Assembly (NCBI RefSeq): GCF_028767185.1
Contig: NZ_JARACK010000005.1
Location: 124,001 to 188,000 of the forward strand
From: Mangrovimonas aestuarii
GTDB lineage: Bacteria; Bacteroidota; Bacteroidia; Flavobacteriales; Flavobacteriaceae
Direction of reading: 5' to 3'
DNA: 64,000 nucleotides
The notes beneath the pieces were generated by a model, which was not told the DNA's origin, ran no database searches, and saw nothing but the letters and a program-made list of their open reading frames with translations. Positions within the stretch are counted from its first letter, which is position 1; each line of letters starts with the position of its first letter. Below, one piece after another: positions 2,963 to 4,196 of the stretch. The position numbers were made by a program, and so were the translations under genes.

Positions 2963-3206
2963 AAATAGGATAGACAATAATGTTTTAAATACTATTAATT
3001 TTTTCTAGACTTTGCAACCTTCAAAAAAAATTATTTTTTTTTATACCACACTACCACATATAGCAATTTTTCACCAAAACCCTCTAGTCTTCTACATTCT
3101 TAGCCAATACAATATTTTATCTAAAACGTTAAAATCTGTTAAACTACTATTATGTTATACACAGTACTGTAACAATCTTGAAACTTGCTCGTCTATACAG
3201 TACAAT

Positions 3207-3222
3207 TCAATCAATAAAACAT
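3207..3222 (+). repeat. Copy 1 of a 16-bp leader repeat before micro-ORF 1
   Basis: TCAATCAATAAAACAT ends 6 bases before the first micro-ORF and recurs exactly at 3348-3363 before the second. A related form, TCAATCAAAAAAC, lies at 3503-3515 before the third. The fixed distance to each ATG suggests a translation-initiation leader duplicated with the coding units. Confidence 0.75.
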
Positions 3223-3228
3223 CATATT

Positions 3229-3315
3229 ATGAGAACTTTAAACAGCAATCAGTTATCCAGTAAGTTTACGCATTCAAAAGGCGAATCATGGAACAGTAAA
3301 CGTCGTTACCACTAA
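3229..3315 (+). CDS. Micro-ORF 1, 28-residue peptide ending WNSKRRYH
   Basis: The ORF starts ATG AGA ACT TTA (MRTL) and runs 28 codons to TAA, ending in the basic aromatic motif WNSKRRYH. It is too short for standard gene calling. Support for coding comes from the neighbouring micro-ORF at 3371-3457, which has the same length, the same MRTL start, the same spacing of N-Q-L and K-F residues, and an identical C-terminal octapeptide encoded with synonymous third-base changes (CGT/CGC, TAC/TAT). There is no signal peptide or membrane segment. The function is unknown; a processed peptide, a leader peptide or a small RNA- or protein-binding factor are all possible. Confidence 0.65.
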   Translation: MRTLNSNQLSSKFTHSKGESWNSKRRYH

Positions 3316-3347
3316 TACCGACAAAAAAGACTTACTTCAATTAATCA

Positions 3348-3363
3348 TCAATCAATAAAACAT
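3348..3363 (+). repeat. Copy 2 of the 16-bp leader repeat before micro-ORF 2
   Basis: An exact second copy of TCAATCAATAAAACAT, ending 7 bases before the ATG at 3371. See the copy at 3207-3222. Confidence 0.75.
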
Positions 3364-3370
3364 AGAAATC

Positions 3371-3457
3371 ATGAGAACTTTAGACAATAATCAATTAACG
3401 GGAAAATTTCACAACGCAAAAAGTGAAACTTGGAACAGTAAACGCCGTTATCACTAA
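3371..3457 (+). CDS. Micro-ORF 2, 28-residue paralogue of micro-ORF 1
   Basis: Twenty-eight codons, MRTL at the start and WNSKRRYH at the end, aligned without gaps to micro-ORF 1. About ten residues differ in the middle (for example SSKFTH versus TGKFHN), while MRTL is identical and the C-terminal WNSKRRYH shows only silent changes. This pattern is what selection on the peptide C-terminus would leave. It is 55 bases downstream of micro-ORF 1 and probably on the same transcript, which would end at the terminator near 3682-3728. Confidence 0.68.
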   Translation: MRTLDNNQLTGKFHNAKSETWNSKRRYH

Positions 3458-3523
3458 TACATGTGCCAACCAAAGTAAACATCAAATTTTCATCAATCAT
3501 CATCAATCAAAAAACGAATTGTT

Positions 3524-3658
3524 ATGCACACTATCATCAGAATATCAAAAAAACTAGAGGGCCTAGTGCAAGATCGACCTCTAAACAGACGGCCAGTAGT
3601 TAAGTTTGAGACCACCAACTCTGGACTTTGGTTAGGCACAAAACGATACGCACACTAA
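3524..3658 (+). CDS. Micro-ORF 3, 44-residue peptide ending WLGTKRYAH
   Basis: A 44-codon ORF starting MHTIIRISKKLEGLVQDRP and ending in WLGTKRYAH. Its N-terminal part is unrelated to the two preceding micro-ORFs, but the C-terminus follows the same pattern, W-x(2,3)-K-R-x-x-H, and the leader before it is a diverged copy of the same repeat. The peptide is strongly basic (many Arg and Lys) with no signal peptide. A stable terminator follows. Its function is unknown; the shared tail suggests it acts with, or is recognised by the same partner as, micro-ORFs 1 and 2. Confidence 0.6.
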   Translation: MHTIIRISKKLEGLVQDRPLNRRPVVKFETTNSGLWLGTKRYAH

Positions 3659-3681
3659 AAACCTAAGCATGAACTAAACCT

Positions 3682-3728
3682 AAAAACGCTTTAAGCATAT
3701 TACCCCAGATTGCCTAAAGCGTTTTTTT
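3682..3728 (+). terminator. Rho-independent terminator after the micro-ORF array
   Basis: AAAACGCTTTA pairs with TAAAGCGTTTT and is followed by a run of T residues, with a loop of about 20 bases. It closes the micro-ORF transcript before the ExbD-like gene. Confidence 0.85.
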
Positions 3729-3767
3729 GACTTTACTGTTTATAAAATTAGATAAATTAATAACTCA

Positions 3768-4196
3768 ATGGCAAACACAAAGGGTATAGAAAGATCAGTT
3801 ACTGCAAACAGCTTGTGGTCTATTATACCTTTGCTATTGTTTAACCTCTTATTTTATCAACCTCTTAGAAAGGCTGAAAGCCCCCTACCAATTTTAACTA
3901 CAAGCGCAAAAAGCCAACAACTCCATGAACATGTATTAAGAATTTTATTAACCGATGATGATACTATTATCATTGACGGACAATTTGTTTCAGTTAACGC
4001 ACTTCCTAAAATCATTAATGATTTTGTAAGTCAGCCAAAACCGGGCTGTAAATCGTGCCTAATTCATGAAGAATACCAGAAAAGAGAATCTACGATAATT
4101 CTAGAGGCTAGCCCTAAAACCAGTGATGGTCTTTATACTACAGTTAAGAATGAAATTACCAAATCTTACGAAAAATTAATGCACTTACTTATTTAG
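3768..4196 (+). CDS. Orphan ExbD/TolR-like protein
   Basis: A 142-residue protein with one N-terminal membrane segment (LWSIIPLLLFNLLFY, about residues 16-30) and a soluble domain matching the periplasmic domain of Bacteroidota ExbD: LLTDDDTIIIDGQFVSVNAL (the 'vdG..v....L' strand), a linker, and GLYTTVKNEITKSYEKLMHL, equivalent to the usual Y..vqneL..AY..L ending. ExbD works with ExbB to pass proton-motive energy to TonB or Tol systems. No exbB or tonB lies nearby, and the conserved membrane Asp of ExbD is not obvious in the hydrophobic segment, so energy coupling by this copy is doubtful. It is convergent with the next gene. Confidence 0.6.
   Translation: MANTKGIERSVTANSLWSIIPLLLFNLLFYQPLRKAESPLPILTTSAKSQQLHEHVLRILLTDDDTIIIDGQFVSVNALPKIINDFVSQPKPGCKSCLIHEEYQKRESTIILEASPKTSDGLYTTVKNEITKSYEKLMHLLI

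Follow-up and report, generated by a model that had tools for sequence, protein, structure and literature searches.

Three very short open reading frames (ORFs) follow one another in the DNA of Mangrovimonas aestuarii analysed here, a stretch of 64,000 nucleotides referred to as the window. Are they genes, what switches them on, and what might their products do? An earlier note, drawn from the letters of the window, had described micro-ORFs of 28, 28 and 44 codons, and their coordinates are right (Table 1). The statement that the first two align without gaps and share an identical tail, with only silent changes in the DNA, was verified as well: ORF1 and ORF2, both 28 codons long, are 68% identical in a gapless alignment (76% identity between the DNA from 3226 to 3318 and that from 3368 to 3460), and both end in WNSKRRYH, encoded with three silent differences (TGGAACAGTAAACGTCGTTACCAC vs. 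TGGAACAGTAAACGCCGTTATCAC). The leader that had been placed in front of each ORF is present as an exact copy (TCAATCAATAAAACAT) before ORF1 and ORF2, but only in degenerate form (ATCATCAATCAAAAAA) before ORF3; the distances between leader and ATG are 6, 7 and 9 nt, respectively. The strong terminator proposed after the last ORF is found, too. Of 90 loci of the family described below, 68 have a terminator-like site no more than 350 nt beyond their final 28-aa copy, compared to 157 of 495 random stretches.

Table 1. Features of the micro-ORF array and its surroundings (positions in the window).
Feature	Position	Strand	Basis or remark
Neighbour of no known family, 230 aa	1644..2336	-	No Pfam match; cluster with arrays in 43/96 loci
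Conserved upstream repeat GTTAAAATCTGTTAA	3128..3142	+	Kept in alignment of 18 promoter-bearing rows
Operator-like element GTTATACACAGTACTGTAACA with perfect palindrome ACAGTACTGT	3154..3174	+	Overlaps the -35 box
ECF-sigma-type promoter	3168..3195	+	-35 TGTAACA (3168-3174), 15 bp, -10 CGTCTA (3190-3195)
ORF1 leader, translation start region	3207..3222	+	Exact repeat; A at -3 and -12/-13
Microprotein 1	3229..3315	+	28 aa, MRTLNSNQLSSKFTHSKGESWNSKRRYH; family matches and tail pN/pS
ORF2 leader, translation start region	3348..3363	+	Exact repeat
Microprotein 2	3371..3457	+	28 aa, MRTLDNNQLTGKFHNAKSETWNSKRRYH; family matches and tail pN/pS
ORF3 translation start region, degenerate	3499..3514	+	94% to shifted repeat copy
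Microprotein 3	3524..3658	+	44 aa, C-terminus LWLGTKRYAH; relatives and 15-row alignment
Intrinsic terminator	3682..3728	+	Arms 3682-3697 and 3711-3726, 94% complementary, then T run; fold about -15.7 kcal/mol
ExbD-like neighbour past the terminator	3768..4196	+	ExbD 18.8 bits, cut-off 25.4; cluster in 31/96 loci

A profile of the two 28-aa copies, searched in 59 other genomes at a threshold of E about 0.001, recovered relatives in 12 of them, every one from the same family; the 23 genomes of other families among the first 60 relatives gave no match at E 0.001. A 24-row profile of the 28-aa proteins matched 129 of the 397 Flavobacteriaceae genomes searched, which represent 88 of 237 genera, and internal stops are absent among the matches listed. 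A sample of the class comprising 295 genomes yielded one match with this profile, in the array's own genome; other Flavobacteriaceae included in the sample had none. In addition, a DNA pattern scan of named genomes returned at least 118 stretches, 80 of which were used. They come from Winogradskyella, Aquimarina, Psychroserpens, Aequorivita, Algibacter, Hyunsoonleella and other genera, which we take to be Flavobacteriaceae, and some from metagenome bins without a genus. Together with 23 loci from the profile search, this makes 103 loci. 28-aa copies were extracted from 99 of them by a regular expression, which delivered no copy in L052, L053, L154 and L173. One copy is present in 47 of the 99 loci, two or more in 52, and nine in one; three loci that duplicate others were dropped for the later counts, leaving 96 loci that are all distinct around the first copy. 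The largest array seen belongs to Psychroserpens jangbogonensis (L163), whose nine 28-aa copies form three repeated blocks of three.

Selection was estimated on two sets. In the first, the pattern used to fetch most of the loci itself prescribes parts of the peptide, which biases the ratios: pN/pS is 0.46 overall, with a pN of 0.083 and a pS of 0.317 within arrays (108 pairs). The cleaner set consists of loci chosen by their promoter, in which every ATG-started 28-codon ORF behind it was taken (31 ORFs, 22 loci). Here, pN/pS amounts to 0.20 for residues 3-7, 0.73 for residues 8-20 and 0.20 for residues 21-28, whereas the same DNA read in frames shifted by one or two bases gives 1.39 and 0.93. 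The synonymous sites of the tail are free to change (pS 0.71). From the low values in both end regions compared to the shifted frames it follows that the 28-codon ORFs are coding and that purifying selection acts on both of their ends, the middle being more loosely constrained. This bears out the earlier suggestion that the locus encodes a family of small, duplicated peptides whose tail is conserved. The homologue searches in Flavobacteriaceae and the selection analysis recommended by the earlier note were run; it had taken a lack of frame-conserving homologues, or stops and frameshifts in them, as a sign against coding, and the opposite was seen, since such homologues exist in roughly a third of the Flavobacteriaceae genomes sampled, without internal stops among the matches listed. 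The array pattern is beyond chance because it has homologues, because selection acts in the coding frame only and because a common promoter lies upstream in most loci.

The repeated leader is best understood as a strong translation start region of the ordinary flavobacterial kind, with which each ORF is provided, because A residues at -12/-13 before all three ORFs and at -3 before ORF1 and ORF2 match positive initiation determinants described for F. johnsoniae (PMC6847099). The promoter in front of ORF1, rather than the leader, is what sets the system apart at the DNA level. When 23 first ORFs were viewed, 18 with an evident motif were chosen for alignment, and in these chosen rows the spacing TGTAACA-N15-CGTCT is constant, one row starting with CGTAACA. 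GTAACA-N15-CGTC is found at most 400 nt upstream of the first 28-aa copy in 85 of 96 loci; it is absent within this distance from 11, one of which has only 91 nt of sequence. The operator-like element occurs as a single copy in the M. aestuarii genome at up to three mismatches. Of GTTAAA-N3-TGTTAA there are three exact copies, compared to none in the reversed control; a phosphate box was considered for this motif and rejected, since the other two copies adjoin genes without a recognisable phosphate role. The region 3128-3174, which is conserved beside the promoter, combines this repeat with two GTAC-like centres that stand 17 bp apart as read by eye.

The joint pattern AGTACTGTAACA-N15-CGTCT, here called strict, is present in 149 of 397 genomes, with none in the reversed control among the matches listed. 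In 30 loci fetched for it, 29 of 31 sites precede a tail-bearing micro-ORF (random background: 16 of 786), while the remaining two, both from one genome, precede a secreted acidic protein. After addition of 20 loci picked from genomes without profile matches or with odd sites, a regular expression assigned such an ORF to 41 of 52 sites, a count in which overlapping loci enter some sites twice. Among the misses are a 48-aa ORF containing WNLHRRYR (L334), a contig end (L337), a locus with nothing evident (L332) and ORFs ending in FKRRIA (L330); the others precede the acidic protein. The strict promoter is not exclusive to micro-ORFs because acidic-protein genes in four genomes carry it as well. 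Their products are secreted and very acidic, 140-188 aa long (L325 of G105, with two tandem sites, L328 of G243, L341 of G390 and L343 of G089) and contain IEVIEIEEEVELxFDTSxYLPENFN-type repeats; for two of them, Pfam gave no match.

How far does the family extend beyond the 28-aa proteins? Relatives of the 44-aa ORF3 stand behind 28-aa copies in 24 of 96 loci, as read by eye and with little downstream sequence in some, and 15 sequences give the consensus MKxxxKISRxLNxITQExLxxNRxIxxFxxSxxxxWKGxKRYAH. A comparison of the 28-aa and 44-aa profiles (hhalign) returned a probability of 0.5, which leaves homology unsupported. Another family of 36-37 aa, with the consensus MKATITKTxTESKTxxxFSxFxxSKRxQWAxxRNxxR, is found in 57 of 397 genomes, one listed match carrying an internal TGA. 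From 34 loci taken for it (two pairs being the same place) copies were extracted in 32, and in 18 of these the promoter lies no more than 220 nt from the first extracted copy. Between the 28-aa and the 36-37 aa families, the tail only is alike (hhalign probability 67, E 5e-5, in a single comparison). Both families co-occur in seven genomes vs. 18.5 expected, a deficit with a Fisher p of 3.5e-4 if genomes are counted as independent of phylogeny. Further ORFs of 24 to 44 aa, with other N-termini and related tails, were seen behind the promoter in genomes or places outside the matches of both profiles. The shared tail has the form W-x2-(K/R)RR-(Y/F) or close to it and is located at the free C-terminus. 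As far as these sequences tell, tail and promoter are constant and the N-terminus is replaced between families. In L330 (G288), the promoter is followed by four near-identical 29-aa ORFs without Trp, which represent either a divergent or an independent family.

The promoter boxes also point to the sigma factor that might read them. In M. aestuarii, the loose promoter pattern with one mismatch gives 33 matches and its reversed control 36; because there is no excess, the sites of this one genome, of which the informative ones were chosen by eye, prove little by themselves. Seven of the 33 are exact GTAACA-N15-CGTC sites including that of the array, and six of the seven loci were viewed, the site on C15 being left out. 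Exact boxes precede an ECF-sigma gene with, after it, a small membrane protein at the anti-sigma position (L104), a small ankyrin protein whose start is signal-like (L089), a protein whose start appears lipoprotein-like by eye (L102), a DUF4870 protein (L114) and an ABC ATPase (L116). A MacB/FtsX permease (L096) has one mismatch in the -35 box, and in a relative a Pmp3 protein is located behind boxes that deviate from the extended pattern at one position. Two relatives (L061, L075) have the boxes before an ECF operon of this type, too. In another genus, 96 of 121 genomes have a promoter match; among 30 loci fetched there, the promoter leads an operon of the ECF-sigma/anti-sigma type in 17, ankyrin-type proteins in three (L357, L365 and L371, so called for their likeness to L089) and different genes in the others, and no array was found behind the promoter in these 30. 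In four relatives (L076, L079, L085, L073), TGTAACA-N15-CGTCT precedes a pair of small membrane-type proteins, the first with 83-85 aa (MELVLSSxDLEPLP...) and the second mostly with 86-89 aa, one example of which had no NCBIfam match. Identical boxes before the ECF-sigma gene itself, as in L104, the two relatives and the 17 loci of the other genus, are a feature of autoregulation, and the ECF factor of this boxed sigma/anti-sigma operon probably reads the array promoter, too.

A promoter common to array and sigma operon would also suit peptides that are regulators, their tail binding the anti-sigma factor, RNA polymerase or a protease and so feeding back on the stress response. Short free C-terminal motifs are typical of docking peptides, and the tail resembles such a motif. 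However, multi-copy arrays with a strong start region per ORF suggest a bulk need, and the sigma operon occurs in a genus whose fetched loci hold no array, which makes regulatory peptides quite improbable.

In F. psychrophilum, a CGT-box (SM6) ECF promoter motif has been defined from mapped start sites; SM6 promoters are induced at low nutrients, and the genes behind them include an ABC ATPase and an ECF/anti-sigma pair (PMC9723704). SM6 and the array promoter have an ECF-type -10 box with CGT in common, and their likeness rests on this box and on gene content; SM6 has T9SS targets in F. psychrophilum, whereas none were met behind the boxes here. An SM6 promoter also precedes the 'putative regulatory RNA' Rfp11, a short independent transcript reported to be conserved outside the species, and the independent transcripts of F. 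psychrophilum are described there as typically without coding potential (PMC9723704). The array likewise reads as a short unit behind an ECF-type promoter. In the array, too, the RNA itself might do the work as a regulator, the short ORFs in it being incidental, and a short, terminated transcription unit would fit. But selection tracks the reading frame and leaves the synonymous sites of the tail free, and Rfam contains no family that reaches its threshold, the one sub-threshold match lying on the minus strand over the terminator (30.7 bits vs. 55). A regulatory RNA is, hence, very unlikely.

The encoded peptides are basic (charge +3.7 to +6.5) and free of Cys. Their GRAVY values are -1.6 and -1.7 for the 28-aa proteins and -0.57 for the 44-aa protein. 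The helical moment lies under that of shuffled sequences (z -1.24, n = 30), i.e. there is no amphipathic helix, and a structure model of the 44-aa protein has low confidence (mean pLDDT 54). The micro-proteins are probably disordered. A secreted signal peptide, one of the roles proposed earlier, is unlikely, as no hydrophobic or signal-like stretch is visible by eye and the 28-aa proteins are strongly hydrophilic. No match at E 1 was obtained in Pfam, NCBIfam, PHROGs and PADLOC, the latter two speaking to phage or defence membership, and no credible one among PDB chain sequences, where a designed repeat protein with an overall E of 0.008 was rejected, no stretch of it being better than an i-Evalue of 380. 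In viral contigs, the two DNA patterns searched there are absent. With Rfam included, the assertion that no named family has this tail stands. A literature search found no paper on the micro-protein family and none containing the tail strings WNSKRR, WNTKRR, SKRRYR or GTKRYAH.

Tandem tiny basic ORFs recall two groups of toxins. Aureocin A70 and garvicin KS are encoded by several short, basic, leaderless ORFs in tandem, and Ldr type I toxins by tandem ORFs that are nearly identical, span about 30 codons and have a basic end containing Trp; the array shares each of these features. In contrast to the former, its products are very hydrophilic and not amphipathic, and no transport, export or immunity gene was recognised in the neighbour clusters seen most often, for which three ORFs of at least 80 aa on each side were considered. 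In contrast to Ldr, they have no hydrophobic segment, and a pattern search of 3051-3760 detected no primary-sigma -33/-7 pair on either strand that could serve an antisense RNA, the minus strand having a lone -7-like box at 3477. A type I toxin with an antisense RNA or a multi-peptide leaderless bacteriocin is, therefore, the least probable of the readings weighed here.

RNA-binding and ribosomal proteins offer further parallels in composition. Arginine-rich RNA-binding peptides of the lambda N type are short and disordered and have an Arg cluster and one important Trp, as do the array peptides, whose tail, by contrast, is C-terminal. bTHX and bL36 are very small basic ribosomal proteins similar to the array proteins in length, charge and Trp and Arg/Lys content, whereas the array is multi-copy and stands behind a stress promoter. 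As mentioned above, the PDB chains contain no credible match. RNA or ribosome binding is the best candidate among the roles proposed earlier, a ranking that rests on composition.

The peptides could also belong to the same regulon and act at the inner membrane, where the tail would bind an anionic lipid or an envelope protein and stabilise a stressed membrane. Envelope-type partners in the regulon (the DUF4870 protein, the MacB/FtsX permease, the ABC ATPase and, in a relative, Pmp3) speak for this. Trp or Tyr beside Arg is common at lipid interfaces, and the tail has this arrangement. Against it stand the strongly hydrophilic character of the peptides, the lack of a hydrophobic stretch and the low helical moment. 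We consider a membrane role unlikely.

The 230-aa neighbour and the ExbD-like gene probably lie outside the unit, and the setting between them looks ancestral rather than functional, because other arrays are found at different genomic places, up to several per genome.

The following course of events is proposed. The array would be transcribed as a single unit within a stress regulon under an ECF sigma factor. Probably, an ECF sigma factor reads the promoter and a second factor acts at the operator-like element overlapping it. The strong start region in front of each micro-ORF and the tandem copies would then raise the dose, so that upon induction many molecules of basic, Cys-free, probably disordered proteins of 28 and 44 residues are made; that they are coding is shown by selection, and their high output is likely. 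The tail is conserved as a free C-terminus, and the variable N-terminal part may serve as a spacer or confer specificity. Finally, the aromatic and Arg/Lys residues of the tail would bind a cytoplasmic polyanion, most likely RNA or the ribosome, and protect or tune it under stress; the membrane ranks second as a target. A polyanion-binding tail is the most economical reading, because the free C-terminus, which contains a single Trp, several Arg/Lys and one Tyr/Phe, is apparently produced in bulk under stress. Taken as a whole, the reading of the array as a microprotein system under ECF control and amplified in dosage, in which the tail binds a polyanion (RNA or ribosome rather than membrane), has in our view about an even chance of being correct. 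A more far-reaching version can be put forward only tentatively, as possible and on balance improbable: the arrays may form a family-wide layer of the stress response that has been missed so far, in which an ECF sigma factor and a second regulator meet at one compound promoter and cause tiny disordered proteins to be made in bulk; with a W-RR-(Y/F) tail and freely replaced N-termini, these would coat and preserve ribosomes or RNA under starvation or envelope stress.

Together, the two peptide profiles cover 179 of 397 genomes (129 + 57 - 7 shared), and unnamed gene families this common are unusual. In the examples seen, the micro-genes have 22-48 codons and are presumably short enough for gene finders to drop. 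With its tail nearly unchanged on varying N-termini and a single stress promoter in front, the system offers a direct experimental handle, and the promoter a sequence tag for finding more micro-genes. The family and its architecture appear to be new, although the mechanism could turn out to belong to a general type already known, that of stress-induced small basic proteins. In the Flavobacteriaceae, genome annotation seems to have overlooked a widespread system of small proteins.
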